Source of the DNA: Candidatus Macondimonas diazotrophica
Lineage (GTDB): Bacteria; Pseudomonadota; Gammaproteobacteria; UBA5335
DNA: 64,000 nt
Direction: 5' to 3'
NCBI RefSeq assembly: GCF_004684205.1
Contig: NZ_SRIO01000014.1
Coordinates: 1 to 64,000, forward strand
Part shown: piece by piece, positions 18,253 to 52,190 of the stretch
Layout of the letters: each line of letters starts with the position of its first letter
Numbering within the stretch: position 1 is the first letter of the stretch
Made by a program: the position numbers and the translations under genes
The notes under the pieces: generated by a model
What the model saw: the letters and a program-made list of their open reading frames with translations, nothing else
What the model was told of the DNA's origin: nothing
Database searches by the model: none

Positions 18253-18468
18253 AGCGCATCCGATGTTCTGCATGGAGCAAAAAAATGGGGTGGGCGGGTC
18301 AGTAAACAAGGTTTCTGGATCGTGACCAGACGGTGTCGATCACGGAACCTTTTTCCTGTGTGATCGCTCTGAAGTGGACGGCATTTGAAAAGTTTTCTTG
18401 ATGCCGGCAATCGCGCCTTTTCATCAGGAAATTGAAACGTCCATCTTGGAGAACCAGGAGAAATCCTT

Positions 18469-19074
18469 ATGTCCGAAAAACTGAATACCGACCAACTCCA
18501 TGAACTGCTCTACCAGGCGCTGGAAACCGAAAATGGCGGCATCAAGATTTACGAAACAGCCATTTCTTGTGCCGTCAATTCGGATCTCAAAGAAGAATGG
18601 CAGGAGTATCTTGACGAGACCCGCCATCACCATCAGACCCTGCTGAATCTTTTCAAAAAAATCGGACTTGACCCAGAAAAGGAAACCCCCGGTCGCCAGG
18701 TGGTTTCCCACTTGGGTGATTCACTGGTCCATGCAATGGAAATGGCAAAGAAATCGGGAAATCCAGAGGCAGCGCAATTGGTTGCGGGAGAGTGTGTCAC
18801 CCTCGCCGAGACGAAGGATAATCTTAACTGGGATCTCATCGAACTGCTTTCTGAAAAGGCAAGCGGAAAAATCCGCGACCTTCTCAAGGAAGCGCATGAA
18901 GAAATCGATGATCAGGAAGCCCATCACCTTTATCACACCCGCGGCTGGACGCGTGAACTGTGGATTGAAAGTCTTGGACTTCCGGCCGCATTGCCGCCAC
19001 CCGAGGAAGCCAAGAGTGTAAAAACCGCCATTGGTGCTGAGCGGGCGAAGAATAAACGCGACGATATGACTTGA
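18469..19074 (+). CDS. ferritin-like domain protein
   Basis: This 201-residue, highly charged and mostly helical protein has the pattern of a ferritin-like four-helix bundle. It has an ETENGGIKIYETAI helix, then DETRHHHQTLLNLF with an E-x2-H-like metal-site pattern, and later EEIDDQEAHHLYHTRGWTRELW. Function is unknown; related proteins are suspected iron or oxidative-stress proteins. AGGAG precedes the ATG. Base composition is clearly lower in GC than the neighbours, with AT-ending codons, which suggests recent acquisition. It stands alone with about 215 bp of upstream DNA. Confidence 0.7.
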   Translation: MSEKLNTDQLHELLYQALETENGGIKIYETAISCAVNSDLKEEWQEYLDETRHHHQTLLNLFKKIGLDPEKETPGRQVVSHLGDSLVHAMEMAKKSGNPEAAQLVAGECVTLAETKDNLNWDLIELLSEKASGKIRDLLKEAHEEIDDQEAHHLYHTRGWTRELWIESLGLPAALPPPEEAKSVKTAIGAERAKNKRDDMT

Positions 19075-27033: not shown

Positions 27034-27205
27034 CGCATGCGCACCCGTCGATCAGGGCTCGGATGACCTCGATCGGCACGGATCGTCCGGGGTCCGATTC
27101 GCCATGCCGCCCGCCCGGCGCTTAAAGTGATGGGAAACCCGGTTCACCACACCGGCGGCGCCAGGCAAGAATACGGACGTGAAGGAATACAGGAGGGAGC
27201 CAGTC

Positions 27206-28126
27206 TTGCGTCAGACGATGTCCGGGCCTTGGGATGCGGCCCTGAAGCGCGCTTCGACCCGATCCGGGCCCCTGGCCTATTACGAATTCGGCGCCGGGGA
27301 CCGTGTGCTCCTGCTGCTCCATGGTTTTCCCGACACGCCGCGCACCTTCGAAAGTCTGGTCGAGGCGGCATCGCAGGCCGGTTATCGCTGCCTTGTGCCG
27401 TACATGCCGGGTTACGGGGATTCCGCCCTGCCGGATCCGGGCGGCGGTTCGATCCTGGCGGTCGGCCGCATGCTGAGTGATTTTCTGGATCAGGCGGCCG
27501 CACATCGGCGGGTCTGTATCGTCGGCCACGACTGGGGTTCCATCCTGGCTCAAATGCTCTGCGGCTTGCAGCAGGAAGTGCCCCCACCGACCTATCGCAT
27601 CGACCGCGTCGTCCTGGCGTCGGTGCCGCCGCTGCGCACCTTTCTGCGGCGCATCAATCCGCGTCAGATGGTGCGATCGCGTTACATGGGCTATTTCCAG
27701 ATTCCCGGTGTTTGCGAGCGGATCCGGCGGGACGATTTCGCCTACATCCGCACGCTGTGGCGTCGCTGGTCGCCGAGCCTCGACCCGCATCATCCGCAGC
27801 TGGACCGGGTCATCGACTGCCTGCGCCGACCCCACGGGCTGGAACAGGCAACCGACTATTACCGCGCCCTGATCAATCCGCTGCGACTGTTCGGTGCGCC
27901 CGAAGCCCTGCGCCAGTTGCGGCTGATGTTTTCCGCCAAACCCTGGCCGGCGCTCATCCTGGTCGGGAGCGAGGACGACTGCATCGGGCCGGGGATGTAT
28001 CGCGGCGGGCCGCATGCGTTTCCCCATCCGGACAGCGCTCAGGAGGTATTGCCCGAGGCGGGTCACTTCCTGCATCTGGAACGGCCCGAAGTGTTCAATC
28101 GGCGGGTGCTGGCGTTTCTCGGCTGA
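27206..28126 (+). CDS. alpha/beta hydrolase (epoxide hydrolase / dehalogenase type)
   Basis: The product is about 306 residues with the alpha/beta-hydrolase fold: VLLLLHGFPDTPRTFESLV (oxyanion HGFP), nucleophile elbow VGHDWGSILAQ with Asp as nucleophile, and the late ILVGSEDDCIGP and EAGHFLHLERPEVFN with the catalytic His. An Asp nucleophile in GHDWG points to the epoxide hydrolase or haloalkane/haloacetate dehalogenase group rather than an esterase. The start is uncertain: AGGAGG lies 9 bp before TTG 27206; GTG 27179 and ATG 27218 are alternatives. It follows the integron remnant and is convergent with the flavin reductase gene. Confidence 0.85.
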   Translation: MRQTMSGPWDAALKRASTRSGPLAYYEFGAGDRVLLLLHGFPDTPRTFESLVEAASQAGYRCLVPYMPGYGDSALPDPGGGSILAVGRMLSDFLDQAAAHRRVCIVGHDWGSILAQMLCGLQQEVPPPTYRIDRVVLASVPPLRTFLRRINPRQMVRSRYMGYFQIPGVCERIRRDDFAYIRTLWRRWSPSLDPHHPQLDRVIDCLRRPHGLEQATDYYRALINPLRLFGAPEALRQLRLMFSAKPWPALILVGSEDDCIGPGMYRGGPHAFPHPDSAQEVLPEAGHFLHLERPEVFNRRVLAFLG

Positions 28127-28383: not shown

Positions 28384-28869
28384 TCAGGCGGAGAGTTTAT
28401 GAAACCGGCCGCTGAAGAAAGCCAGGGGCATGGTTGGAAGCGCGCCGTCGTTATGAAGCATCAGCCCCCGACCGACCAGGATATAGTGATCAGCCACTTC
28501 ATAGGACTCGACCAGCTCCACCTCGACGCTTGCAATGCAACCATCCAGGATGGGCATGCCGAAGGTCCCCATGTGATAGGGCACATCAAGAAACTTGTCT
28601 GCGGTTTTGGATGCAAACGTTCGTGCCAGAAGATCCTGTTCTTCGCAGAGGATGTTTACACAGAACCGCTTGGTTCCCAGCAGGCTCTTGAGCGTTTCCG
28701 ACTTGCGGTCGGCACAGATCAGCAACAGCGGCGGCTCAAGAGAGACCGAAGAAAAGGCATTCGCCGTGAGCCCAACTGGATTGCCATTTTTGTCCACGGT
28801 TGTGACAACATTGACGCCCGTAACGAATCGTCCCATGATGCTGCGCCATTGATCGACTTCGATGGTCAT
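28384..28869 (-). CDS. FMN-dependent flavin reductase (HpaC/RutF-like)
   Basis: The 161-residue protein is of the flavin reductase-like, FMN-binding family: FRSIMGRFVTGVNVVTT-type start (here WRSIMGRFVTGVNVVTT), GLTANAFSSVSLEPPLLLICADRKSET, and FCVNILCEEQDLLARTF. Such enzymes use NAD(P)H to supply reduced FMN to separate monooxygenases. ATG 28869 has GGAGGT upstream. It is the last gene of the leftward block and would serve the luciferase-like monooxygenase and the acyl-CoA-dehydrogenase-like flavoprotein encoded upstream. Confidence 0.9.
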   Translation of the reverse strand: MTIEVDQWRSIMGRFVTGVNVVTTVDKNGNPVGLTANAFSSVSLEPPLLLICADRKSETLKSLLGTKRFCVNILCEEQDLLARTFASKTADKFLDVPYHMGTFGMPILDGCIASVEVELVESYEVADHYILVGRGLMLHNDGALPTMPLAFFSGRFHKLSA

Positions 28870-28903
28870 GTGCGGTATACCTCCGGCATGAGTTGTCGCG
28901 AAC

Positions 28904-28944
28904 ATCATGTCCCTTCTTATCCGAAGGACAAAAAGGGACATGAT
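28904..28944. repeat. perfect 12 bp inverted repeat with 17 nt loop
   Basis: ATCATGTCCCTT (28904-28915) and AAGGGACATGAT (28933-28944) form a perfect stem in the gap between the DUF1329 gene and the flavin reductase gene. It has no U-tract in either direction, so it is not a classic terminator. It could be an operator or an mRNA-processing hairpin between two parts of the operon. Confidence 0.6.
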
Positions 28945-28966
28945 TCGACCTGTCGTTCCGCTGCTT

Positions 28967-30280
28967 CTATTGCGGCCGTACCGGCTCGCCTTTTCGAAGC
29001 ACCTCAACATTGATGTGATTGCCGTTGATCCCCGGCGTGTTCATCATCTTGTTGTCGGGCTTGCCTGTGACATAGTTCGTCGCGTGCATCCGCTTGTAGT
29101 CGGCAATGACGCCCAACGATGGAAAGGCCAGATTCAGGTCCATTGCCGGATCGGCGTAGACCATCACCGGATGCATGCTTCCTTTCCAGTATTCATTCCG
29201 CTTGTCATAGATCTCACCCATGGGAATGGTATGGGTGGCCGCATCCATGTAGATGATTCGGCGTCCATACGGATGGTAAGACGGTGGCACGCCCTCGATG
29301 ACGTAGGTTTCCCGCGGCTGCCAGACCACGAAGTCCGGATTCGGGTGCCAATAAGGCGCGGCACTCAGATCCATTGCGGGATACTCGTTCTTCTGGCTGC
29401 CGGCATCGGGCTTCCAGGTGAACAGTTCCATATCGGGATGAATGGGCAGAAGGATTTTCTTCTTTCCGAGCAGCTTCCAGGATGCATAGTTGGACGGCTT
29501 CGTCTGGAACCCGATGTCGTCTTCCTGAAGCAGGTCCGTACCCGGAATGGGTTCGCTCCAGCTGTTTCCGCTGATTCGCCGAATGCGTCGGAAACTACGG
29601 ATGTAGGCCCACGCTTCATCAGGCCGCTCGTCAACGTATTCGTTGATGAAGGTTCCCACACCGCGGACGTCGTCCGGGTAGGTCGCGAACAGCAGCTTCC
29701 GATTCAGCAACTTGCTGTCCCCGATGATCGGCTCATCGCTCCAGGTGCGTCCCCACATCTTGTAGTACTGCAGCGCCCAGATCTGTTCCCGTTCGATGCC
29801 CGATTTCCCGTCAATGAACACGAACGCGAATTTCTCGAGATTCAAGAAGTCAAAACTTGAAGCATCTCCGGCAACATAGAAATTCCACATCAACTTGCTC
29901 GCCGCATCGGGCGCAGTCAGGTCGACGTTTGGAAACGGCATGCCCGCGGTCCAGTTGATGAGATGGCCATTCTCATTCAGTGAGACCGTGTTTTCATTGT
30001 CGTACTTCTTCGCCAGTTCCAGTGGCTTTTTCACGACCGGCATCGGCTTGCTCGCGGCCAGCTTGATGCGCAGGTTATGGTCCGTGATCAGCCATTGTGT
30101 TTTCTCGGGAATCATGTCCTTTACGGGTGTTCCCTCGAATGTTGCATCATCCAGCGACGAAAGATTGCTTTTGTCGATGATGAATCCCGGTTTTAGTTCT
30201 TCGCCGAAAACCGAAATGGATGTAATGAACAAGATGGCCCCAGTTAGCAAGGTCGTATGCTTTTTTGATGCAAACCGCAT
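28967..30280 (-). CDS. DUF1329 outer-membrane-associated protein
   Basis: The product has 437 residues with a clear signal peptide (hydrophobic 9-24, then VFGEELKPG). Most of the body matches DUF1329, a LolB-like-fold family: KYDNENTVSLNENGHLINWTAGMPFP near residue 90, then RRIRRISGNSW and a long tail ending in a basic motif. DUF1329 and DUF1302 proteins are usually encoded together with an RND transporter and a YCF48-like protein, as here, often beside catabolic genes for hydrophobic compounds. Molecular function is unknown. AGGAG precedes the start. Confidence 0.88.
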   Translation of the reverse strand: MRFASKKHTTLLTGAILFITSISVFGEELKPGFIIDKSNLSSLDDATFEGTPVKDMIPEKTQWLITDHNLRIKLAASKPMPVVKKPLELAKKYDNENTVSLNENGHLINWTAGMPFPNVDLTAPDAASKLMWNFYVAGDASSFDFLNLEKFAFVFIDGKSGIEREQIWALQYYKMWGRTWSDEPIIGDSKLLNRKLLFATYPDDVRGVGTFINEYVDERPDEAWAYIRSFRRIRRISGNSWSEPIPGTDLLQEDDIGFQTKPSNYASWKLLGKKKILLPIHPDMELFTWKPDAGSQKNEYPAMDLSAAPYWHPNPDFVVWQPRETYVIEGVPPSYHPYGRRIIYMDAATHTIPMGEIYDKRNEYWKGSMHPVMVYADPAMDLNLAFPSLGVIADYKRMHATNYVTGKPDNKMMNTPGINGNHINVEVLRKGEPVRPQ

Positions 30281-30322
30281 TTCAGCTCTCCTGAATTAGA
30301 GATGGCTACCAAAGTACCCGCT

Positions 30323-31927
30323 TCAGTACTGATAACTGACCCGGAGGTAGAGTTGATCCGAGTTGTTGAGTGTTCCGAACAGGTGCGTGTTGTTCAATTC
30401 ATCGCCGTTTGGATAGAACAGATCCGCTTCTGCCCTGATCCGCCAGTGATCCCCATAAGCGAATGTGATGCTCGGAAGCAGGAAGTAGCCGCCGTAGGTA
30501 ACGTCAAATCCCGAAGCAAGACCGACATTGATCCGGTCCAGGTCATAGTTGAGAAAAAGGCCTGCGGTGACGATTGTCGAGTGCTCGTCTTTTGTAGCCG
30601 AATAGGCCGGAAGGTCGACGATATCGTCGGATTCATCGAAGTCCATGATCCAGGTATCGAAAACCTGGACCGAGAACAGTGAAGGACGATTCGTCTTCAG
30701 ATACTTCATCAGGTCAATGGTTGTTTCACCCCGGACCATGGTCCGCAACGTGTCCTTCTCGACCACGCCGTTGTAGCCGCCCAGAAGATAAAGATCGCGT
30801 GGCTGAAAGCTGTTGACGCTCAGGTCCAGCACATTGAGAAGCGGGCTCGATCCCGCGTTGTAGGGCTTGTCCGGTGTATAGGCGATTTCCGTTGCCCAGA
30901 CGATGTCACCGAGGGGAACGTACCCATTGGCCGAGAGACCGAAGGTATCCACGATGGGATAGATCGCCTCGGCAATCGGCGATTCCGGTGCGGTCTTATA
31001 GGGCGCGAACCGGCTGTTGATGACGACTTCGGGCTGAAACTGGTGAAGCCACATCAGCTGATAGTTGATACTGCCCAGTGTGCTGCTCCAGCGCAGCGCA
31101 CCGGTGAGGTCATCCTTGTCCCCTTCCGGGTGTTCGAGGTTGTAGGGTGCGCCAATGGTCTGGGACCCGAACACGTCGAAGGTCCGCAGTCCGTCCGGTG
31201 CCCATCGACCGCCGTTCAATCCGATTCGGGTACCGATGTCGTCCGCGTCATCAAGTCCAGGGCGGAGAACGACCTGAAGGGTGCCGTCGAGTGCCGGAAC
31301 GTAGGTTTCCGAATTGAACAGGATCAGCGGCTGATAGAGTTCCTCGGGTTCCTCGAGAAAGTTTCTCCATCGCAGGTCCATCCCATGAAAGACGTCCAGC
31401 GCCTGGAAAAAGTCGGTCTCGCCGAAGGTCACGATCTGCTTGCCAACCCGGACCTTGGTGTTTTTCAGGGCCTGGAAGTCAAAGTATGCTTCCCGGATCT
31501 CGGCGTCTTCGTCGTAAATCGCGCTGAGATCCCCCTCTCGTGGCGAGCCGATCCCGAACTCGGAAATGATGGTGGAAAGCATGGCCTCGTTCCCTGCCCC
31601 ACCTTCCTCCAGGCGAGAGAGGTAATCGGTCATCATCTCTCGGCTGAACCGGCCGACGACCGTGAAATCGACGTCGCTGATACGACCCGTGACATCCGCT
31701 CGGATGCTGGTCCGCGCCATGGATACATCGTACTTGTCATCTTTATCGTCACTGGGGCTGATCTTGGGATCGGCAAGATTGACGGAGATGCCTTCGCGAA
31801 TGTAGCCACTGACACTCAGGTCCTCAATCAAGCCTGCATGGCCCGTTTGAGAAGAGGTCATGCCCAGGACGAGTGAGGCAGTCACTTTCGGCCAATTTGC
31901 CTTAACGGAGTGTTTAACATGTGCCAT
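30323..31927 (-). CDS. DUF1302 outer-membrane protein
   Basis: The 534-residue product has an N-terminal export signal and DUF1302 features: LIEDLSVSGYIREGISVNL at the mature start, RVGKQIVTFGETDFFQALDVFHGMDLRW (the conserved 'GxQxxxWGExD' region), and alternating beta-strands ending in LYLRVSYQY with a C-terminal aromatic residue. It is a likely beta-barrel channel. It is encoded directly before the DUF1329 gene and after the RND transporter. AAGGAAG precedes the ATG. The substrate is unknown. Confidence 0.88.
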   Translation of the reverse strand: MAHVKHSVKANWPKVTASLVLGMTSSQTGHAGLIEDLSVSGYIREGISVNLADPKISPSDDKDDKYDVSMARTSIRADVTGRISDVDFTVVGRFSREMMTDYLSRLEEGGAGNEAMLSTIISEFGIGSPREGDLSAIYDEDAEIREAYFDFQALKNTKVRVGKQIVTFGETDFFQALDVFHGMDLRWRNFLEEPEELYQPLILFNSETYVPALDGTLQVVLRPGLDDADDIGTRIGLNGGRWAPDGLRTFDVFGSQTIGAPYNLEHPEGDKDDLTGALRWSSTLGSINYQLMWLHQFQPEVVINSRFAPYKTAPESPIAEAIYPIVDTFGLSANGYVPLGDIVWATEIAYTPDKPYNAGSSPLLNVLDLSVNSFQPRDLYLLGGYNGVVEKDTLRTMVRGETTIDLMKYLKTNRPSLFSVQVFDTWIMDFDESDDIVDLPAYSATKDEHSTIVTAGLFLNYDLDRINVGLASGFDVTYGGYFLLPSITFAYGDHWRIRAEADLFYPNGDELNNTHLFGTLNNSDQLYLRVSYQY

Positions 31928-31979
31928 TACGAGTTCTTCCTTCTAAGAATGGACATTCCACGACACCCATCTCAATTCA

Positions 31980-32000
31980 GTTTCTAATTGATTAGTAAAC
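31980..32000. promoter_or_regulatory. palindrome upstream of DUF1302, similar to the TetR-operator candidates
   Basis: A 21 bp imperfect palindrome with core CTAATTGATTAG overlaps the last codons of the RND gene, 53 bp before the DUF1302 start. It shares AATTGAT-Y-AGT with the operator-like repeats at 38496 and 40248. It may be a third operator; overlap with coding sequence makes this uncertain. Confidence 0.3.
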
Positions 32001-34332
32001 TGCCTTCGAAAATTTCATTGTTTCTTTCTGTGAAGACGAATCGCGGCTTGAAGATATAGATCATGGCTGGTGTAAGAAGCAGTGCCGAAGATGCGGACAC
32101 CACCATCCATAAGCCCATCAGTTGTCCCATCTCGGCCTGGAACCGTAGCGAGGAAAACTGCCAGAGAAGAACGCTGACGATCAGTACTGTGGCTGTAATG
32201 AGCACGCCCTGGCCCGCACTGGCCATCGCATCGATCATTGCCTTTTTTACGGTGCTTCCTGCTTCCCATTCCTCCTTGACGCGATCGGCGATATAGATCG
32301 CGTAATCGACACCCAGTCCGATACCGATTGCCGCTACCGGAACGGTGTTGACGGTCATGCCGATCCCTTGATAGGCCATGTAGCCGAAGGTGACCGTGTT
32401 CGACAGTGCAACCGGCGCCAGAAAGAACAGACCGGCGTGGGATGAGCGATAGACCATCGTGCACACCAGCATCAGGATCAGCAGCGCAACACCGATCGAT
32501 TCGATCTGATCATCCAGGATCACTTCATTGACCGCTGCGAGCATTCCGATCACGCCGCCACCGATCTCCAGCGAAGCTGTTTTGATGTCGTGCGCCAGAG
32601 CGAATTCATTGAACCGGGCCAACGCGGTTCGAATGACGTCGCCTTCGCGGCTGTTCATGACGAACTGCACCGCGCTGTTTTCAAACATCGAATCGATAAC
32701 GCTTTCCAGCTGTCCCGGCTGTGAATTTGCCCGAAGCTGATACATCAGCTCGCCATTGACGAATCGGTCGTCGGCCAGTTCCTGGAAGTGGGGATTGTCG
32801 TCATGCAGCAATCGGTTGATGGACACCATCATGTCTGCAACCGAAAAGCTCCGGACGATTTCGGGCTGCATCTCCATATAGCGCTGCAGTGCATGAACGG
32901 TTTCCAGTACCTCGGGATCCTTCTGCGCATCCGGCCCGTCGCCGCGTGCGACCACCATCAAGGTGTCGGTGCCGCCGAACTTCGAGTTGATCGCAGCCAG
33001 ATCCTCATTGAATCGGGAGTCTTCGCGAAAGATCGGTGACCCGGCGCTCGAATCGCCGATCTGGAGGTTCATTGCCGAAAAAGAGGAGATGGCGAAAAGC
33101 GTCAGCGCCAGGCCCACCACCACATACCGTCCCGGCGACATCGCCAGATGACCCAGTGCAGCGAGCGCGGCGGTGATCCGTTGGCGAATCCAGTTCGGAC
33201 GGGTATCCACATTCCGGTATCCCGCCAGGAACACCGGAGTGAGAACGCTTGCACTGATCGCGATCGTGCTGACCCAGATGACCGCGATGAGCGCGAGTTT
33301 CTGAAGAAATGGAATGCTGCTCAAACCCACCGCAGCGGCACAGAGCCCGTCGGTCGCAATGCCGAGCATCCCCGGGCGAAATAACTCGGCAAGGGTCCGG
33401 GTGGCACCCTCCGGGATGGTGACCCCGTCCTTGGACACTTCTTCATCGAAGCGAAGCACCATCTGCAACGAGTGGGATACGCCTCGGGCGAACAGCAGGA
33501 TGATCACTGGTAACAACAGCGGATCAAGATTGATTCCGAAGGCTGCGCAGATGCCCAGTGTCCAGATACAGCTGAGGAAGCCGCTGAGAAGTGGAAAGAC
33601 CACGGCCCGGACGGTTCCGACCATCAGATAGAGCAGAATCGCAATGGACCCCAGGACGCCCAGGACGATCAGGATCGTTTCGTTCAGCAGCGAGGCGACG
33701 TAGCCATAGATGATGGGTTCGCCGACCATGCGAAAAACGTGATTGGCGTCCTCCACTTGCGCTTGCAGCGCTGAAAGCTGGGCAAACAGCACATCGTAAT
33801 CGCTGAAGTTTTCATAGAGATCGGCCGTGATCAGTGCCGATTTCAAGTCACCGGAGACGTAGCGTCCATAGGCCAATGGCGTTTGGATCACCGTGTCCTT
33901 CAAGGCGCGTGCGCCGGCTTCATCCGTGGGGATATCCGGCCACATGAGCGCTTCGGAGCGAATGCCTTCGGCCGATGCACTGATTCGCGCCATCTTGCTG
34001 GTGGCCAGCGAGGTGATCGTCAGTGAATCCACGCCGGCGGTCTGTTCGAGTGCACGGGTGATGTCGTGGATCTTCTCAAGCGTCGGCAGGGAAAAAATAT
34101 CCCGATCGTCCGACACTTCTAATGCCAAGGCGATCTTGTTGGCGCCGCCGAACGACTCGGCAAATTCGCTTTGAAGTGCCGTGTAGGGATGGCCTTTGGG
34201 CAGGAAGTCGGTCTGGACGGTCGTGATGTCCAGCCGGGAAACCGCGAACAGGCAGAGCGCAGAAACAACCCAGACAGCGGCGGTAAAGGAACGCCGATAT
34301 CGAACCGCCAGATATGCGATTTTATGTTCCAT
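31984..34332 (-). CDS. RND/MMPL-family transporter
   Basis: This 782-residue polytopic protein has the RND layout: helix 1 at about 12-32, a large periplasmic loop starting TDFLPKGHPY, helices 2-6 in a block at about 210-390, helix 7 near 410, a second large loop, then a final helix block. Segment PVAAIGIGLGVDYAIYIADR carries the conserved acidic residue of helix 10 in this family. It resembles HpnN/MmpL-like lipid or hydrophobic-substrate exporters rather than AcrB, which is about 1,050 residues. I chose ATG 34332 because the family starts there and AGGA lies upstream. It forms a module with the YCF48-like, DUF1302 and DUF1329 genes. Confidence 0.88.
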   Translation of the reverse strand: MEHKIAYLAVRYRRSFTAAVWVVSALCLFAVSRLDITTVQTDFLPKGHPYTALQSEFAESFGGANKIALALEVSDDRDIFSLPTLEKIHDITRALEQTAGVDSLTITSLATSKMARISASAEGIRSEALMWPDIPTDEAGARALKDTVIQTPLAYGRYVSGDLKSALITADLYENFSDYDVLFAQLSALQAQVEDANHVFRMVGEPIIYGYVASLLNETILIVLGVLGSIAILLYLMVGTVRAVVFPLLSGFLSCIWTLGICAAFGINLDPLLLPVIILLFARGVSHSLQMVLRFDEEVSKDGVTIPEGATRTLAELFRPGMLGIATDGLCAAAVGLSSIPFLQKLALIAVIWVSTIAISASVLTPVFLAGYRNVDTRPNWIRQRITAALAALGHLAMSPGRYVVVGLALTLFAISSFSAMNLQIGDSSAGSPIFREDSRFNEDLAAINSKFGGTDTLMVVARGDGPDAQKDPEVLETVHALQRYMEMQPEIVRSFSVADMMVSINRLLHDDNPHFQELADDRFVNGELMYQLRANSQPGQLESVIDSMFENSAVQFVMNSREGDVIRTALARFNEFALAHDIKTASLEIGGGVIGMLAAVNEVILDDQIESIGVALLILMLVCTMVYRSSHAGLFFLAPVALSNTVTFGYMAYQGIGMTVNTVPVAAIGIGLGVDYAIYIADRVKEEWEAGSTVKKAMIDAMASAGQGVLITATVLIVSVLLWQFSSLRFQAEMGQLMGLWMVVSASSALLLTPAMIYIFKPRFVFTERNNEIFEGSLLIN

Positions 34333-34343
34333 ATCGAGATTTC

Positions 34344-35471
34344 CTATTGGAGGGATTGCTTCTGGAATGGCAGGAAGCTGCCGTCCTGGATGATCCCGGT
34401 GTCGCGACCGGAGACGTAAATCGCGCCATCTCGCAATGCGAGACCGGTGTGCCAGGACAGGTTCCGGTCGTCGATTCGTGATGTCGTCCAACTGGTCCAA
34501 TCGCCATTGACGGTCCGGCTGATCACGCCCATGTTGCCGACGGCAATCCACTCATCCAGGCCGGCGTCCCACTCAACATCGAAAAGATGCTCGGTCGTTA
34601 CAGCGGGCAGTTCACGCCAGTTCACGCCAGCGTCATCGGAGATGAGCACGGTGCCATTCTGTCCAACGATCACGGCCCGGCCATCGGCGGAAAACGCGAC
34701 ATCAAGCAATGTCAGCTCCGTCAGGTCGGGGAGATCCTGCCAGCTCGCGCCCCCGTCGCTGGTTCGTGCGATGGTTCCGAATTCGCCAACGACGATCCCG
34801 ATTCGCTCATCCAGAAAATCGACGCTGTTGAAAATGATGTCTTTTACGGGTGAGGCTCGATTCCACGACACGCCGTAATCGGTGCTGTGAAAAATCGCGC
34901 CCATGTCGCCGACGGCCCAGGCCTCGCCTTGGCCCTGGACGGTGAGCCCGAGAAGTTTCGTCTTCTCACCGATGGTCGATTCACGAAGCGCCCATTGATC
35001 ATTGGTCCGGGTACCCGTCACCACGGCGCCGTCGTTGCCGATGGCCAGAATATGGTCGTTGTCCCATGCCGCAATATCCTGAAGCGCAGCGCGGAGTTCG
35101 GCATCCAGCGGTGTCCAGCGCTGCCCGTTATCGTTCGAGGTCAGAATCTGTCCGTTCTGACCCGCGACGAACATCTCTCCGGCGGGCGTGATCGCGATCC
35201 CGAAAAAGTGATCGCGGGGCATGAAGATTTTTGGCTGGACCTGATCTTTCACGGGCGGCAGCTTGAGGGTCACCGATGCCAGTGCAAGCGCGCCGATCAC
35301 AAGCCACGGGAGCATGGAGCCAGCCAAACGTACCAGTTGCGACAGCACTCGGCCGGATCCATGGGCGATGTCACCCAGGACATTGCTGGAATTCCAGCCC
35401 CTGAAGGTCTCACGATGAGACGCACGATTGAGATGGTCTGGTGATGTTTGAACTCGGTTGAGGTTCTGCAT
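34344..35471 (-). CDS. YCF48/BNR-repeat beta-propeller protein, membrane anchored
   Basis: The product has 375 residues: a cytoplasmic N-terminus, one helix at about 54-70 (MLPWLVIGALALASVTL), then repeating blades of the photosystem-II stability factor type (YCF48/HCF136). Repeats have the pattern G-x-I-x-x-S-x-D-x-G-x-x-W, e.g. NGQILTSNDNGQRW, MGAIFHSTDYGVSW, FGTIARTSDGGASW and NGTVLISDDAGVNW. The family occurs in non-photosynthetic bacteria next to RND transporters with DUF1302/DUF1329, as here, where it may act as a periplasmic adaptor. It is separated by 11 bp from the RND gene. A tandem 10 bp repeat (CAGTTCACGC twice) lies within the gene at about 34606-34625. Confidence 0.85.
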   Translation of the reverse strand: MQNLNRVQTSPDHLNRASHRETFRGWNSSNVLGDIAHGSGRVLSQLVRLAGSMLPWLVIGALALASVTLKLPPVKDQVQPKIFMPRDHFFGIAITPAGEMFVAGQNGQILTSNDNGQRWTPLDAELRAALQDIAAWDNDHILAIGNDGAVVTGTRTNDQWALRESTIGEKTKLLGLTVQGQGEAWAVGDMGAIFHSTDYGVSWNRASPVKDIIFNSVDFLDERIGIVVGEFGTIARTSDGGASWQDLPDLTELTLLDVAFSADGRAVIVGQNGTVLISDDAGVNWRELPAVTTEHLFDVEWDAGLDEWIAVGNMGVISRTVNGDWTSWTTSRIDDRNLSWHTGLALRDGAIYVSGRDTGIIQDGSFLPFQKQSLQ

Positions 35472-35527
35472 GGCGCGTACCGAATAGATGTGTTTGTTGA
35501 ACTGGGATTACCATGGCCAAAGGTTTC

Positions 35528-36283
35528 CTAGATGCAGGAAGCCAGCGCCTTTTCCATGTATCGCGAATATGAAATCAGCGGATTTGCGTTCGTGAGATCG
35601 GGCATGAGATCACGGCCAAGCAGCGCCGAATCATGAGCCGCGCGATAGCGGATGAGCTGTTGAATGGTCAGCCGGAGAAGCCCGAATCGTGCTGCGAACC
35701 GGGCGACGCTCCTGCCTGTAATCGGGTTACCGTCCTGTCCGAGAATTTCGCAGATCACACCGGCCGCCGGCGCGTCGGCCAGGCGTGCCAGGTCAGTCGC
35801 GGCCTCCGTGTGCCCGGCACGACCCAGGACCCCGGCTGGATGGGCGATCAAGGGAAAGACATGGCCAGGACGGGTGAAGTCGCCGGCCGTGGCGTGCAAA
35901 TCGGCCAAAGCCCGCAAGGTCCGGGCCCGCTCGGTCGCAGAGATGCCGGTTCGACACGATGCGGCGTCGACCGAGACCGTAAATTGCGTGCGATGGGGAT
36001 CGGAATTGCCTTTCACCATGGGATCCAGGCGTAGACGTTCGGCAATTTCCCGGCTCACTGGCGCACACACCAGGCCTCGACCGTGGGTGATCATGAAATT
36101 GACGACATCCGGCGACACGCGATCTGCCAGTGCCACCAGATCGGCTTCATTTTCCCGGTCTTCTGCGTCCTGGACGATGATCGCCTTTCCGGCTCGAAGC
36201 TGCGTGATCGCACGAAGGACCGGTTCATCCGATTGTTCGGATGACGGGGACGGAGAATGCCAATCGGAAAGCTTCGTAATCAT
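35528..36283 (-). CDS. ribB: 3,4-dihydroxy-2-butanone 4-phosphate synthase RibB
   Basis: This 251-residue protein makes the four-carbon precursor of riboflavin from ribulose 5-phosphate. Motifs are complete: IIVQDAEDRENEADLVALA (metal-binding DREN), FMITHGRGLVCAP, RTGISATERARTLRAL and RAGHTEAATDLARLA. There is no GTP cyclohydrolase II domain, so it is RibB, not RibBA. ATG 36283 has GAGAGGT 5 bp upstream. It lies inside a block of flavin-dependent enzymes, suggesting a dedicated copy that raises FMN supply; the genome's main riboflavin genes are not in the window. Confidence 0.93.
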   Translation of the reverse strand: MITKLSDWHSPSPSSEQSDEPVLRAITQLRAGKAIIVQDAEDRENEADLVALADRVSPDVVNFMITHGRGLVCAPVSREIAERLRLDPMVKGNSDPHRTQFTVSVDAASCRTGISATERARTLRALADLHATAGDFTRPGHVFPLIAHPAGVLGRAGHTEAATDLARLADAPAAGVICEILGQDGNPITGRSVARFAARFGLLRLTIQQLIRYRAAHDSALLGRDLMPDLTNANPLISYSRYMEKALASCI

Positions 36284-36370
36284 CACATACCTCTCACATG
36301 ATGGAATCACGCACCAGCGACCGGAAAGAGAGGCGGCTTGGGTCGGTCCCCAAGCGCGCCGGTCGGTGAC

Positions 36371-36715
36371 TCACGCGTCCAGGGCGAAGCCCATTTCCTG
36401 TGCCAGATCAAGTTGCCGTGATTCGTGATACCGAACGATTCGCCAGCTCTCGCCGCGCTTGATCAGTCCGTGCGTTGCACGAAGCTCACCTTCGAAAGGC
36501 TCGGGAAGCAGCTTGGACAGGAGCGCAGTCTGAAGCTTCGTGTAACCGAAGGCGGAACCACCGATCACCCGCGGACCGCCGTTTCCCTCGGACTGATCGG
36601 CCCGATCACCAGCCTCCGGATTGAACAACGACAGCATCAGTTCGATAGCCACGGTTCGCCGTGCGGTGCACCACGTTTCGTAGAGATCCTGAACGGATGA
36701 AAGGGCTTGGGTCAT
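36371..36715 (-). CDS. small hypothetical protein of the flavoenzyme block
   Basis: The product has 114 residues. ATG 36715 has GGAG 8 bp upstream. The composition is soluble and mixed alpha/beta (e.g. RVIGGSAFGYTKLQTALLSKLL, LRATHGLIKRGESWRIVRYHE). The last part loosely resembles small NTF2/SnoaL-like enzymes, but I cannot confirm a family. It lies 67 bp after the acyl-CoA-dehydrogenase-like gene and 87 bp before ribB, so it is probably co-transcribed and may act on the same substrate. Confidence 0.7.
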   Translation of the reverse strand: MTQALSSVQDLYETWCTARRTVAIELMLSLFNPEAGDRADQSEGNGGPRVIGGSAFGYTKLQTALLSKLLPEPFEGELRATHGLIKRGESWRIVRYHESRQLDLAQEMGFALDA

Positions 36716-36782
36716 CGATGTTCTCCGGATGATCGTCTTGCGCATCGTTGCTGCCTGCGACCAGGCAGCCGGTCGGACTGGA

Positions 36783-37994
36783 TCAGCCCAGGGGCGGCTG
36801 AATCTTTGTCATATCGAGATCCATGGCCCCGATGGCGGCCAGCTCTCGCTCTTGCCACATATGTGGGGGCATGACGGTCGCGACCATGGCATCCCGCATC
36901 AATCGTGGGAGCGGATTCTTGTTGTAAAGCGAGTTGGCCCCGCATGCGCTCGGAAGCGTTCTGACGGCTTCCATGAGCGCGTTGGTAATCGCCAGCTTTG
37001 CCTTGGCAAAGCCGTAGAAGGATTCCGGGATGTTTCCATGGGTGTCATAAGTCAATGACACCTGGCGGACGATCAGTCGTGCTTGGTCGAGGCGATCAAT
37101 CAGCGCGCCGATCGTCTGCAAGCTTGAGGGGTGGTAAGCCATGGGCTGGGTGTAGCCGCGTGGAACCCGTGAAAGCAGATACTGCTGCGCCCAATCCAGC
37201 ATTGCCGTCAGAATGCCCAGGTATACCGAAGAAAACGTGTGGTAGAACTCGGCGCTTGAGGTCTGGAGCAAGCTTTGAAAGAAGTCGCTTCCACGCAACA
37301 GGGTTTGCTCTTCGGGAATGAACAGCCCATCAAAGAACACGCTGTTGCTGCGGGTGGCGCGAAGACCCAGCGTATCCCAGGTATCTTCGACATTGACGCC
37401 CGGCATCTTGGTGTCGATCAGCAGGAACACGCTTTCGGTGGCATCCGGCGAATCCTTGATGTGAAACATCACCATCGAATAGCGCGATGCTTCAAAGTTC
37501 GTGCCGAACTGTTTGCGGCCGTAGAGCTTGTATCCGCCCTCCACGACCTCAACGTATGAGGTCGGGTTCAGCGTTGCATAGATCAGGGAGTTTCCACCGG
37601 GCTCCGAGGCGACGGCGGACATGAGGTTGTTGACCGTGAGATCGCACAGATACGCGAACTTGTCCTTGTTGACGGACTCGAGGCCGGCCCCCTTCATCAG
37701 ACTCATGGACATCTGATGCATGTTGAAGGCCATGGACGTGCCGGAGCAGCCCTGCCCCAGCTGTTCCAGGATCAGACTGTACTCGAACATCCCCAGTCCC
37801 AGGCCTCCATATGCCTTCGGAACCAGTGCGCCGTAGAATCCGGCAGATTTGATGGCGTCCCAGTTCTCGGATGGAACCCACCGTTCACGGTCGGCCTGGT
37901 CAGCATTTTTCTTCAATACCTGTGCGACTTCCCGGGCGGATTCTTGAAGTTTCTTCTGTTCCGGGCTGAGATCCAGTAATCCAGTCGGCTTCAT
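36783..37994 (-). CDS. acyl-CoA dehydrogenase-like flavoprotein (possible flavin-dependent monooxygenase)
   Basis: The 403-residue protein has the acyl-CoA dehydrogenase fold: LVPKAYGGLGLGMFEYSLILEQLG, the flavin region SEPGGNSLIYAT, and LGLRATRSNSVFFDGLFIPEEQ. The C-terminal part (SLYNKNPLPRLMRDAMVATVMPPHMW) resembles the Acyl-CoA_dh_2 type of DszC/HsaA-like two-component monooxygenases more than classic dehydrogenases. With a flavin reductase and RibB nearby, an FMNH2-using oxygenase is likely; a true dehydrogenase remains possible. ATG 37994 has GGAG 7 bp upstream; the adjacent ATG at 37997 is an alternative. Confidence 0.85.
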   Translation of the reverse strand: MKPTGLLDLSPEQKKLQESAREVAQVLKKNADQADRERWVPSENWDAIKSAGFYGALVPKAYGGLGLGMFEYSLILEQLGQGCSGTSMAFNMHQMSMSLMKGAGLESVNKDKFAYLCDLTVNNLMSAVASEPGGNSLIYATLNPTSYVEVVEGGYKLYGRKQFGTNFEASRYSMVMFHIKDSPDATESVFLLIDTKMPGVNVEDTWDTLGLRATRSNSVFFDGLFIPEEQTLLRGSDFFQSLLQTSSAEFYHTFSSVYLGILTAMLDWAQQYLLSRVPRGYTQPMAYHPSSLQTIGALIDRLDQARLIVRQVSLTYDTHGNIPESFYGFAKAKLAITNALMEAVRTLPSACGANSLYNKNPLPRLMRDAMVATVMPPHMWQERELAAIGAMDLDMTKIQPPLG

Positions 37995-38031
37995 CATTGT
38001 TCTCCAGATGACGTGAGGTATGGGTCCGCGT

Positions 38032-38460
38032 TCAGGCGCTGACGACCGCTTCAACCTGGATTTCGAGCATGAGGCCGGGCAAGGCAAGATGCGTGACGCC
38101 CATGGCGCTACCGGTCGGGATCGCGTCAGGAAGCAGTTCCCGCTTGATCTCGAAAATCTTCATCACCTTGTCCGCAAAGGGAATGTCTGGCGCCTCGCTG
38201 TGAACGATGAATTGCTCGATCTGAACGATGTCTTTGGGTGCACCGCCGGCCGCTTCCAGCACGTTCTTGATGTTCAACCACGTCTGGCGCACCTGTTCCT
38301 CGTAGGTGGGCAACACCTCGAAGTCTTCCATGGTTTGCCCCCATTTCACGCCGACCTGCCCTGAAATGAAGATGTGATTACCAACCCGCTTCGCGTCGCA
38401 GGCGTGAATCGCCTTGCAGAAATCCCCGCTTCCCGGCACATAGATATTGGTTGCGTTCAT
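38032..38460 (-). CDS. RidA/YjgF family protein, copy 1
   Basis: The product has 142 residues of the RidA (YjgF/YER057c/UK114) family, enamine/imine deaminases or related hydrolases. It starts NIYVPGSGDFCKAIHACDAKRVGNHIFISGQVGV and includes TWLNIKNVLEAAGGAPKDIVQIEQFIV and a C-terminal LALPGLMLEIQVEAV. The N-terminal half is close in sequence to the second RidA of the block, so the two are paralogues. ATG 38460 has AGGAG 8 bp upstream. RutC of the pyrimidine-degradation Rut pathway belongs to this family, but the substrate here is unknown. Confidence 0.9.
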   Translation of the reverse strand: MNATNIYVPGSGDFCKAIHACDAKRVGNHIFISGQVGVKWGQTMEDFEVLPTYEEQVRQTWLNIKNVLEAAGGAPKDIVQIEQFIVHSEAPDIPFADKVMKIFEIKRELLPDAIPTGSAMGVTHLALPGLMLEIQVEAVVSA

Positions 38461-38495
38461 TGTTCGGCTCCTGATGTTGGAACGGTGGGTGATAT

Positions 38496-38512
38496 ACTGA
38501 TCAATTAATAAG
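38496..38512. promoter_or_regulatory. operator-like repeat A (candidate TetR site)
   Basis: ACTGATCAATTAATAAG lies between the luciferase-like and first RidA genes, about 36 bp before the RidA start. It matches the repeat upstream of the second RidA gene at 15 of 17 positions and has inverted-repeat ends (ACTGAT and ATAAG). A TetR gene is divergent from this block. Confidence 0.5.
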
Positions 38513-38527
38513 TCGACAGGTAAAAAT

Positions 38528-39643
38528 TTAGGGCAGGAATTTAGTCCCCTCGGCAAATGGGCTTCCGGTGACGACATTGCGTGGGGACGCAAAGTGTGGA
38601 ATGACGTGATTTCCAATCAGATCCACCGCTTCCATGATCTGGCGGTGGGTCATGTCCCCGTCGACACGGAGAATGACTTCGTCATATCCCGCTTCCTTGA
38701 GGCGTGAAATCTGCTCAACGAAATACTCCGGCGTTCCGCAGAGCACCCCGGGCGTGTGCTCAAGCAGTACTTCAATATCGTCAAGCATCGCATTGATCAT
38801 CTTCGACTCCGCCATGTAGGCATAGTCGGGTGAAGCTTCGGCGAGCTGGTCGTATGCCTGAACGACAATACGAAGGAAATTGATGACGGTCGGTCCGCCT
38901 TCCGCGATCGCTCTTTCGTGCGTCTTGGCACAATAGGCGGGCAGCACCAGGAAGGAGAGCGTATCGTTGACAACCTTTCCGACCTGCTGCGATGGATGGG
39001 TGATGGCATTCTTATAGAGCTTGGCGGCATCTTCTACGCGGCCCCAACCCAGATAGTTGTCGAAGCCCATGCAGCCGATTCCTTTCTCGCCCGCGATCTG
39101 ATGCATTTCCATGCTTGAGGCCGCGACGGAGAGCGGGGGGTGCGGTTCCTGCAGAGGCTTGGGCGTCAGGAAACACGGCGGTATCTCCCAGTACTTCCCT
39201 TTGTGTTCTACCCAGTCCTCGGAAATCGCCTTGGCGATGATGTCCAGCGATTCGTTCCACTGCGCGCGTGTTTCGGTGGGACTGACCCCAAAGGCATTCA
39301 GAGCGATCAGGGAATTCGATCGTCCTGTCCCCAGTTCGGCCCTGCCGTTGGAGATGAGGTCGAGGGTCGCCAGCTGTTCCGCGATGCGCAACGGATGATT
39401 GAACTTCAACAGCAGACGGATCATGTGCCGCAAGCGAATGCGGGTGGTCTTTGCTGCGACCGCCGCGTACATCACTTCAGTGGCGGACATGCCAATGTTC
39501 CCCATGAAGTGCTGCTCGGATGCACCCCAGAAGTCGAATCCCGCTTCTTCTGCGTACACTGCTTCACTGATCATCTGCTGATACCGGCGGTGTTGGGTCA
39601 ACCCAACCGGAACATTTGCTTCAACGATAAGGCCGAATTTCAT
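38528..39643 (-). CDS. luciferase-like FMN-dependent monooxygenase (LLM class)
   Basis: This 371-residue TIM-barrel flavoprotein is of the bacterial luciferase family: AEEAGFDFWGASEQHFMGNIGMS, the RIRLRHMIRLLLKFNHPLRIAEQLATLDLISNGRAELGTGR block, and IGCMGFDNYLGWG. Members use FMNH2 and O2 to oxidise or cleave their substrate (bacterial luciferase, RutA, alkanesulfonate monooxygenase). A flavin reductase and RibB are encoded in the same block. AGGAG precedes the ATG. The substrate cannot be predicted; the neighbouring RidA paralogues suggest an imine or enamine-producing reaction. Confidence 0.93.
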   Translation of the reverse strand: MKFGLIVEANVPVGLTQHRRYQQMISEAVYAEEAGFDFWGASEQHFMGNIGMSATEVMYAAVAAKTTRIRLRHMIRLLLKFNHPLRIAEQLATLDLISNGRAELGTGRSNSLIALNAFGVSPTETRAQWNESLDIIAKAISEDWVEHKGKYWEIPPCFLTPKPLQEPHPPLSVAASSMEMHQIAGEKGIGCMGFDNYLGWGRVEDAAKLYKNAITHPSQQVGKVVNDTLSFLVLPAYCAKTHERAIAEGGPTVINFLRIVVQAYDQLAEASPDYAYMAESKMINAMLDDIEVLLEHTPGVLCGTPEYFVEQISRLKEAGYDEVILRVDGDMTHRQIMEAVDLIGNHVIPHFASPRNVVTGSPFAEGTKFLP

Positions 39644-39822
39644 GTCGTTCTCCTGTCGTTCCCTGAAGCGGGCATATTGAGGATCTGAATCGTTCTTTCG
39701 GGATTACACATCGCGTTGTGTTCGACGGTGTATGGGCTTCCGCGGAATCTTTCACCTTGAGACGCTTTGGAAGTCATCGGAAGTTTCTCTTCCGGGTCGT
39801 TCAGTCGCGATGTCAAACTTGG

Positions 39823-40236
39823 CTATTTCATGGCAACGACCTGAATCTCGACCTGGAGATCCGGCAGCGCCAGATCACTCACGCCGATGGTTGTTCCGGT
39901 TGGTGTCGAATCGGGGAGTATTTCGTTCTTGATTTCAAAGATCTTCATGGTTTTTTCGCTGAAGGTTCCTTCAGAATCATCAGCGTGTACAATCATCATG
40001 AGGATTTGTACGATGTGTTCGCTCTCATAGCCCGCTGCATCGAGTGCAGTCTTGATATTGACCCAGGTTTTTCGGGTCTGGGCTTCGAAGGTCGGAAGCA
40101 ATGTCATGTTGTCGGTCCAATCGACACCGCCTTGCCCGGAGATGAAAAGCTTTTCTCCGACCACGGTGGCATCACAAGCGCCGATGTCTCTACAGAACTC
40201 GCCGCTTCCGGGTAAAAAAAGATCACGCTTGGTCAT
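39823..40236 (-). CDS. RidA/YjgF family protein, copy 2
   Basis: The 137-residue RidA-family protein runs RDLFLPGSGEFCRDIGACDATVVGEKLFISGQGGVDWTD at the start and LALPDLQVEIQVVAMK at the end. It parallels copy 1 through nearly its whole length (GSGxFCxxIxACDA, FISGQxGV, TWxNIKxxLxAAG, FEIKxEILPDxxPTG). Keeping two diverged copies in one block suggests either two steps or a mixed trimer. It is the first gene of the leftward block, just behind an operator-like repeat. Confidence 0.9.
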   Translation of the reverse strand: MTKRDLFLPGSGEFCRDIGACDATVVGEKLFISGQGGVDWTDNMTLLPTFEAQTRKTWVNIKTALDAAGYESEHIVQILMMIVHADDSEGTFSEKTMKIFEIKNEILPDSTPTGTTIGVSDLALPDLQVEIQVVAMK

Positions 40237-40992
40237 GTCGGACGCCCCTTATCAATCGATCAGTTACCACCGAGCAGAGAGCGTGCCAATTTTTTGTTTT
40301 CCCAAGGAATGAACTCGTAAGTCATTGTCGGATCAGTGAATAATCGAAGCGTAATGTATGAGGGTCCGGCCTGATCCGGTATCGAATGGTTGCGGCGCGC
40401 CGCGCATGATCCGCACTACGATGGGGCTTCTCGCAGGGGACTGCACTACCGTGACGCGCGGGAAGGATGCTTGGGGATCGAAATCCGTCGTGTCTGCACG
40501 CTGGATGTCTGCATCTCTCCGATGCGCCTGATCGAATGGGGCTCGCCTGCTGACAGGATGCGGTGAGCCCGGGATGGGATTGCGTGAGGGGTGACGCCCC
40601 CTCATCTGGCCGATCCGATCACGGCGTCGCGCCATGAGTGGATCGCTGTCTGCTGGAATAAAGCGCGCTTCGGAATGATGCCACTGTCGGGCGGAATCCT
40701 GCGGCGTGCTTCTTCGCAGCCGGTCTTGTCACCCTTAAGGTCAGCGGTACGGGCGTTCCGCAGTTTCGGGCGGGAGTCTCGTCGAGAACTGGCGCTGTCC
40801 CGGACAGTTGACTGGCCGATCAGTAAGGGATGGCGCTTTCGCAAGGTCCACGGTAAACTTCAGTAACGGACCAAGCGGCCTTTTGCCCGGCAACTGAGCG
40901 GATTGGCTCGTGTCGAGTGAGCCACCCGGCCGGACGGCGTTCGGTGTCCTTCGAGCAAGGTTCTGCTGGAAATGTAACAGGATGTTTAGGCA
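40237..40992. other. 756 bp divergent intergenic region between the RidA/LLM block and tetR
   Basis: This region holds the promoters of the leftward catabolic block and of tetR. The only structure I can support is the operator-like repeat near its left end. Another GATCAGT half-site lies near 40816-40822. Open frames (e.g. 40602-40844 minus) look like chance frames, with no family features. Confidence 0.5.
40248..40264. promoter_or_regulatory. operator-like repeat B (candidate TetR site)
   Basis: CTTATCAATCGATCAGT lies 12 bp upstream of the start of the second RidA gene. Its reverse complement matches repeat A at 38496 in 15 of 17 positions. Binding here would block the promoter or ribosome-binding region of the leftward block. 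Confidence 0.5.
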
Positions 40993-41643
40993 GTGAACGT
41001 GGATAGAAAAAAAAGTGCACAGTTTGATAAGAAAACGGAAATTCTGGCGGTTTCGGTGCCAATGTTTGCCGCCTATGGGTATAACAAGGTTACCATTCGG
41101 GACATCGGTGCAGCGGCTGGAATGACTTCCGCGGCGCTTTATTACCATTTTCAGGACAAGCAGACGCTGTATCGCGAAGCGCTGAAATTCTCGTTTCAGT
41201 CCAAGGCCGAAATCACGCACGCGATCCTCTCATCGCAAGGAACGCCGGAAGAGCGTCTGGCCGCCTTCATCGAACGGTACACCCAGCTGCTCGCCGATGA
41301 TCCGGATTTTCGGCGTGTGATGCAGCGGGAACTGCTGGACGGAGATGAAGAAAGCGTGGGAATGCTCAGCGAGCTGTTCCAACAACCGTTTGACGAGCTC
41401 GCGGCAATCGTCGAGGTGCTCGCGCCCGCCACCGACATTCACATGGTCATCATGTCCATCATCGCCATGATTCTCTACCACTACGAAGTCGGACCCTTGC
41501 GGCGGCTGCTGCCCGGCGCGAAGCCCGAACACGAGGATTACCGGACCCTGGCAACGCATATCAAACGGCTCATTTTCTCCATGCTGGAGAAAGAGGTACC
41601 GGCCGACTTGCCGCCGACCACGGTGCCCACTGCGCTGGGGTGA
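40993..41643 (+). CDS. TetR-family transcriptional regulator
   Basis: The 216-residue protein has an N-terminal helix-turn-helix: FAAYGYNKVTIRDIGAAAGMTSAALYYHFQDKQTLYREAL, the TetR signature, at about 24-63. The rest is the helical ligand-binding and dimer domain. The start is a GTG at 40993. It is divergent from the RidA/LLM block, the usual place for a local repressor released by a pathway substrate. The operator-like repeats at 40248 and 38496 are candidates for its sites. Confidence 0.93.
   Translation: MNVDRKKSAQFDKKTEILAVSVPMFAAYGYNKVTIRDIGAAAGMTSAALYYHFQDKQTLYREALKFSFQSKAEITHAILSSQGTPEERLAAFIERYTQLLADDPDFRRVMQRELLDGDEESVGMLSELFQQPFDELAAIVEVLAPATDIHMVIMSIIAMILYHYEVGPLRRLLPGAKPEHEDYRTLATHIKRLIFSMLEKEVPADLPPTTVPTALG

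Positions 41644-50558: not shown

Positions 50559-52190
<1,632 letters not shown>

Follow-up and report, generated by a model that had tools for sequence, protein, structure and literature searches.

Gene content and layout

The stretch analyzed here (the window) comprises the first 64,000 nucleotides of contig NZ_SRIO01000014.1 of Candidatus Macondimonas diazotrophica (assembly GCF_004684205.1), and its subject is a block of 11 co-directional genes running on the minus strand from position 40236 to 28384, with gaps of 11-179 bp between genes and a divergent TetR gene. An initial annotation had read this block as an undescribed, inducible pathway that moves a hydrophobic compound across the envelope and oxidizes it with reduced flavin mononucleotide (FMNH2) and O2. 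All the enzyme classes that it named are backed by Pfam and NCBIfam profile matches, and the common layout and divergent regulator are as it described.

In the direction of transcription, the block opens with RidA1 (39823..40236; PF01042, Ribonuc_L-PSP, 52.8 bits), an LLM flavin-dependent monooxygenase of the TpdA/PyrA-like clade (38528..39643; PF00296, Bac_luciferase, 157 bits) and RidA2 (38032..38460; PF01042, 49 bits), both Rid-family proteins being without the catalytic arginine. There follow an ACAD-fold flavoprotein with ACAD N, M and C domains, a probable flavin-dependent (group D) monooxygenase (36783..37994); a SnoaL/NTF2-like protein of 114-124 residues (36371..36715), unnamed in the initial annotation, which scores slightly below the Pfam cut-off; and RibB, the 3,4-dihydroxy-2-butanone 4-phosphate synthase (35528..36283; PF00926, DHBP_synthase, 247 bits; TIGR00506 above cut-off). 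Next come four envelope genes, encoding a YCF48-like, AmeC-like protein (34344..35471; PF14870, 66 bits), an HAE3-type RND/MMPL transporter resembling AmeD (31984..34332; TIGR00921, 145 bits, under its cut-off; PF03176, 72 bits), an AmeA-like DUF1302 protein, presumed to be an outer-membrane barrel (30323..31927; PF06980, 51.3 bits), and an AmeB-like, DUF1329/LolA-like periplasmic protein (28967..30280; PF07044, 162.5 bits; PF17131, 37 bits). A flavin reductase (28384..28869; PF01613, Flavin_Reduct, 131.7 bits) closes the block. The starts of RidA2 (38460), the ACAD-fold protein (37994), the RND transporter (34332) and the flavin reductase (28869) were refined by homology and ribosome-binding sites. 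On the plus strand, the divergent gene encodes a TetR/AcrR-family regulator (41643 being its last position and 40993 its first; PF00440, TetR_N, 52.9 bits; CecR_C, 27 bits) that has no close equivalog among NCBIfam models. Immediately downstream of the operon lies a convergent alpha/beta hydrolase gene (27179-28126).

Related loci and the state of the window copy

The same set of genes occurs at a second, independent locus, L027 (contig WOZA01000085.1), filed under an 'Anaerolineaceae' (Chloroflexota) metagenome-assembled genome, in the order RidA1, ACAD', LLM, RidA2, ACAD, GST, SnoaL, RibBA, YCF48, RND, DUF1302, DUF1329, flavin reductase; the order in the window is that of L027 minus the first ACAD gene (ACAD') and GST. 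Because L027 shares this gene order, and because nonsynonymous divergence (dN) lies far below synonymous divergence (dS) in the measurable pairs, the block is real and no chance array. The L027 LLM is 84% identical to the gammaproteobacterial copy, and DUF1302 and DUF1329 envelope proteins are encoded on this Chloroflexota-filed contig, which is probably misbinned or recently transferred.

The genome itself holds two further loci. L021 (contig C24) contains RidA1, ACAD', an LLM 85% identical to that of the window, RidA2, ACAD, GST and SnoaL, and is without transporter or reductase. In L025 (contig C8, 2680-17844), the four Ame-type genes are accompanied by genes for a flavin reductase, for two monooxygenases of StyA type and for two Rieske oxygenases, as well as by two Rid-like genes. 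This cluster also carries a cytochrome c-like gene, and its RND protein (13938-16760) is extended at the C terminus by a segment that, as judged by eye, contains a Rieske-type CTH...CPWHG motif and would make the protein an RND-ferredoxin fusion.

The RpoB of the genome, with 72% identity to the E. coli protein, indicates a gammaproteobacterium; a bacterial 16S model gave no match in the assembly. To assess distribution, 369 genomes from the class were searched for LLM, ACAD and SnoaL, and a further search for LLM covered 9 from the order and 399 from the phylum. The only notable further LLM matches were L022 (54% identity), where another genome of the class encodes the LLM together with a StyA-like protein, a Rid protein and a Rieske oxygenase, and L042 (38%); the remaining matches within the class showed 29-36% identity, none of the other 8 genomes of the order had an LLM at the threshold used, and a search of viral contigs gave no match. 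The operon is rare, and it was probably acquired horizontally; its GC content is 56%, against 64% in the left flank and 67% in the right.

Set against L027 and L021, the window copy has neither ACAD' nor GST, its SnoaL gene has an in-frame deletion of 31 residues, and, in alignment with the RibBA of L027, its RibB is missing the GTP cyclohydrolase II portion. A search of the intergenic gaps for remnants of ACAD' or GST returned nothing above noise. These losses would suit a decaying paralogue that contributes little, with the working enzymes being those of L021, but all 11 genes are open, and comparison with L021 gives dN of 0.11-0.15 against dS of 1.2-4.1 for RidA1, LLM, RidA2 and ACAD, indicating that the core enzymes of the window are conserved under purifying selection. 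Moreover, the window copy is the one that has a transporter linked to it and the closest flavin reductase, so that the two loci look complementary. We therefore regard decay as quite improbable, and a functional catabolic operon as the better description of the window copy.

Affinities of the LLM and of the SnoaL/NTF2-like protein

Among plasmid-encoded proteins, the best relatives of the window LLM (37-44% identical) are those of Rhodococcus opacus 1CP, where the gene lies directly upstream of tpdB, its R. pyridinivorans counterpart, and that of plasmid p2MP. In a maximum-likelihood tree, the LLMs of the window, L021, L027 and L022 form one group (support 96/91), which is joined by those of p2MP, A. 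crystallopoietes and pYKAM101 in a subclade of seven rows (95/91) and by the LLMs of tpd loci in an enclosing clade of 13 rows (98/100); RutA, SsuD and the other LLMs of the class fall outside this clade. The gene tpdA encodes a putative flavin monooxygenase of a tetramethylpyrazine operon (PMC6099782).

The surroundings of these genes point in the same direction. In plasmid neighborhoods, flavin reductase genes accompany 10 of 11 clade members, riboflavin or FMN genes 4 and RidA genes 3, as opposed to 3, 0 and 0 of the 6 LLM neighborhoods outside the clade, in samples that are small and have flanks of differing size (6-10 kb). RidA, riboflavin kinase and flavin reductase genes all lie near the p2MP LLM. 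The full-length SnoaL protein of L021 has a single homologue among 72,556 plasmids, namely an NTF2-like protein of p2MP (41% identical) whose gene is situated about 4 kb from the p2MP LLM; their alignment scores 266, compared with a maximum of 58 in 500 shuffles, and lies 48 standard deviations above the shuffles. The proposal that the substrate is "probably nitrogen-containing or cyclic" thus gains support from both the LLM phylogeny and the neighbors shared with p2MP. The p2MP stretch (L040) contains two LLM genes (8503-9654 and 17827-18978) with an identical protein accession, in opposite orientation and flanking catabolic genes.

We had also considered SnoaL as a direct homologue of TpdB. 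Both match TIGR02246 at a weak, family level, but direct alignment of TpdB with the L021 protein gave a chance-level score, and the relationship is treated here as one of analogy. For the ACAD-fold and SnoaL proteins, AlphaFold models had mean predicted local distance difference test (pLDDT) scores of 39.5 and 41.8 and were discarded.

Rid proteins, ACAD-fold flavoprotein and flavin reductase

Both RidA1 and RidA2, in the window as in L021 and L027, align a glycine with the arginine column of E. coli RidA (R105) and RutC; because this arginine is replaced, the Rid proteins of the window are, as far as their residues tell, not canonical deaminases. The ACAD-fold protein can be aligned to pig MCAD up to residue 374, after which the next query residues are Met-Pro, such that the position of the catalytic Glu376 is occupied by a proline within an MPPHM motif that is kept in both ACAD copies of L021 and both of L027. 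It scores 76, 59 and 75 bits against the HsaA, DszC and HpaH models of NCBIfam, all far below the equivalog cut-offs. Because the catalytic glutamate is missing and the operon includes a reductase, the protein fits a flavin monooxygenase. The reductase matches HsaB best (126, cut-off 230), followed by FerA (106, cut-off 260) and RutF (73, cut-off 255).

The initial annotation had likened LLM, reductase and Rid to RutA, RutF and RutC of pyrimidine degradation. A Rut-like operon would have the same broad classes, and a TetR regulator is likewise divergent in the E. coli rut region. However, a search of the genome with the RutA profile (TIGR03612) gave no match, the LLM is distant from RutA in the tree, the Rid proteins lack the arginine of RidA and RutC, the reductase is far from the RutF cut-off, and the operon contains no other Rut enzyme. 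On these grounds we rejected the Rut analogy, and membership in that pathway is very improbable.

The envelope cassette

The four genes between 35471 and 28967 are adjacent and of the types that define AmeABCD of Castellaniella defragrans, in which DUF1302, DUF1329, COG4447 (YCF48-like) and HAE3 RND proteins are encoded together (PMC6394551). The best family for the window RND is TIGR00921 (HAE3), even though it falls below the cut-off. By gene content, the envelope module is an AmeABCD-type cassette, and because such a cassette has been described, the block is not undescribed throughout, as the initial annotation had it. Among plasmids, the closest cassette is that of EbN1, which has the same four genes in the same order (YCF48-RND-DUF1302-DUF1329) and an RND protein 43% identical to that of the window, and which sits amid genes of acyl-CoA beta-oxidation.

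The initial annotation would have been contradicted had the enzymes and the envelope proteins failed to co-occur elsewhere, but they do: the whole set is present in L027, and Rid and Ame genes co-occur at L025, L080 and L082, the plasmids concerned being those of Caballeronia NK8, where a TetR gene is also present, and of Cupriavidus KK10. On the Caballeronia plasmid pNK84 (L080, 8788-19263), the YCF48, RND and DUF1329 genes are accompanied by a divergent TetR gene and by genes for RidA and a phytanoyl-CoA dioxygenase.

AmeABCD has been assigned to the export of monoterpenes and raises monoterpene tolerance (PMC6394551), which would favor a detoxification operon in which the cassette expels a toxic hydrophobic compound that the flavoenzymes merely modify. 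Export, however, would not call for two oxygenases along with a reductase and a gene for flavin synthesis, and the enzyme core of L021 exists without a transporter. TetR regulators frequently govern efflux systems, as this explanation would have it, but we consider efflux unlikely and favor catabolism of an imported substrate. In Pseudomonas putida, the counterparts PP_0765/0766 and PP_2018/2019 are required for metabolism of Tween 20, and substrate transport has been suggested (PMC10866462).

The same findings bear on what the substrate is. In the main rival explanation, an operon of the same architecture acts on a nitrogen-free hydrophobic alicyclic or aromatic compound (a terpenoid, steroid, hydrocarbon or ketone), the LLM being either a Baeyer-Villiger enzyme or, like the ACAD-fold protein, a hydroxylase. 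The monoterpenes of AmeABCD, the P. putida genes needed for growth on Tween 20, the beta-oxidation surroundings of the EbN1 cassette, HsaB as the top match of the flavin reductase, and the coupling of Ame-type genes with StyA-like and Rieske oxygenases in L025 would all accord with it. The LLM clade and an NTF2 homologue specific to p2MP favor N-heterocycles instead, and the usual intermediates of Rid proteins are nitrogenous. A nitrogen-free substrate is less probable but by no means remote, and an N-heteroaromatic one is what we prefer.

Control region

Upstream of RidA1 lies a putative sigma-54 (-24/-12) promoter, TTGGCACG-CTCT-CTGCT (40273..40289, minus strand), found by pattern match. It is the sole exact match to YTGGCAYGN5TGCW in the 64 kb, and a GG-N10-GC element of sigma-54 type occupies the same place in the window, L021 and L027; because the pattern, with up to one mismatch allowed, is hardly commoner in the window than chance predicts (4 matches against 3.8 expected), the promoter is suggestive only. 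About 10 bp beyond the GG-N10-GC element, next to the ribosome-binding site, is a near-palindrome (ATCRATCGRTTGATAAGG-like; 40247..40264, minus strand) common to the window, L021 and L027, whose pattern has 1 match in the window against 0.06 expected and which is a candidate TetR operator. The operon may thus be under the control of both TetR and sigma-54. The genome encodes at least 8 sigma-54 activators; one of them is represented by a domain match of 253 bits at 51087-51584 in the window, about 11 kb from the operon promoter.

A proposed inducible catabolic operon for a hydrophobic, probably N-heteroaromatic compound

Taking these lines of evidence together, we put the probability somewhat below one half (about 0.48) that the block is an inducible catabolic operon, dependent on FMNH2 and O2, that imports a hydrophobic, most likely N-heteroaromatic compound via an Ame-type cassette and oxidizes it, and that it was probably acquired horizontally. 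In its general form, the flavin-dependent, inducible block with an envelope module that the initial annotation put forward is supported.

The substrate would pass the envelope by way of the DUF1302 outer-membrane barrel and the DUF1329, YCF48 and RND proteins, while the flavin reductase would supply reduced flavin and RibB would raise its availability. TpdA and PyrA reportedly oxygenate and open their rings; the LLM, perhaps with the NTF2-like protein as a partner, may do likewise, with the ACAD-fold flavoprotein as a second monooxygenase of the pathway. The Rid proteins might then process reactive enamine, imine or carbonyl intermediates without the canonical RidA arginine. TetR would repress at the operator near the start of RidA1, possibly acting on the sigma-54 promoter.

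Several observations weigh against this reading, which is at its weakest on substrate class and on whether transport is inward. The LLM shares no more than 37-44% identity with its named relatives, and its clade also includes LLMs encoded beside CoA ligase, enoyl-CoA hydratase and creatininase genes. The link of p2MP to a pyridine pathway, with its LLM as PyrA, is presumed from a 2020 paper. An amidase or amidohydrolase is encoded next to the LLM at both the tpd and the p2MP locus, but neither is present in the operon, and no homology of SnoaL to TpdB emerged from direct alignment. The described role of AmeABCD is that of an exporter, and the window copy has lost ACAD', GST, part of SnoaL and the cyclohydrolase portion of RibBA.

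More tentatively, the operon may represent an aerobic pathway that has not been described before, from a little-known order of Gammaproteobacteria. In it, a hydrophobic N-heteroaromatic ring would be opened by a TpdA/PyrA-type LLM together with an NTF2-like protein, one or two ACAD-fold flavoproteins would serve as further monooxygenases, and the products would pass to two Rid proteins that lack the arginine; a dedicated Ame cassette for import and a flavin-supply gene would complete the set. To our knowledge, the LLM enzymes linked to the breakdown of heteroaromatic rings are a small set, mainly from Actinomycetota; if the proposal is correct, they extend to a Gram-negative lineage and are matched there by an envelope transporter. 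It would also offer a testable role for Rid proteins without the catalytic arginine and for the LLM-associated NTF2-like protein.

Comparison with known systems

Relatives are known for every part of the operon, but neither the combination nor such an operon in this lineage was found described in the literature searched. The tpd locus of Rhodococcus (PMC6099782) resembles it in an LLM of the same clade, a small NTF2-like protein and a nearby flavin reductase, but LLM identity is 40-44%, and the window operon is without the amidase, LuxR-type regulator and SDR gene. With the p2MP locus of Arthrobacter sp. 68b it shares an LLM of the same subclade, genes for a flavin reductase, a Rid protein and flavin supply, and SnoaL/NTF2, which has no other homologue among the plasmids; the LLMs are, however, 37% identical, p2MP encodes an amidohydrolase together with a succinate-semialdehyde dehydrogenase, and neither an ACAD-fold protein nor an Ame cassette is annotated in the p2MP stretch examined. 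The Rut system of E. coli is alike in its broad classes (LLM, Rid, flavin reductase) and TetR regulator, whereas here the genome is without RutA, the operon is without RutB, RutD and RutE, and the LLM, Rid and reductase are not orthologous.

The same four protein types are encoded together in AmeABCD and in the window, but AmeABCD is linked to monoterpene genes and the window cassette to LLM, ACAD-fold and Rid genes. Similarly, L025 shares the transport cassette, Rid proteins and flavin reductase with the window operon, but has StyA-like and Rieske oxygenases in place of the LLM and ACAD-fold enzymes. Because Ame cassettes are paired with an LLM in the window, with StyA-like and Rieske oxygenases in L025 and with a phytanoyl-CoA dioxygenase in L080, these comparisons suggest a mix-and-match design, in which Ame cassettes are combined with differing oxygenases for the degradation of hydrophobic compounds.

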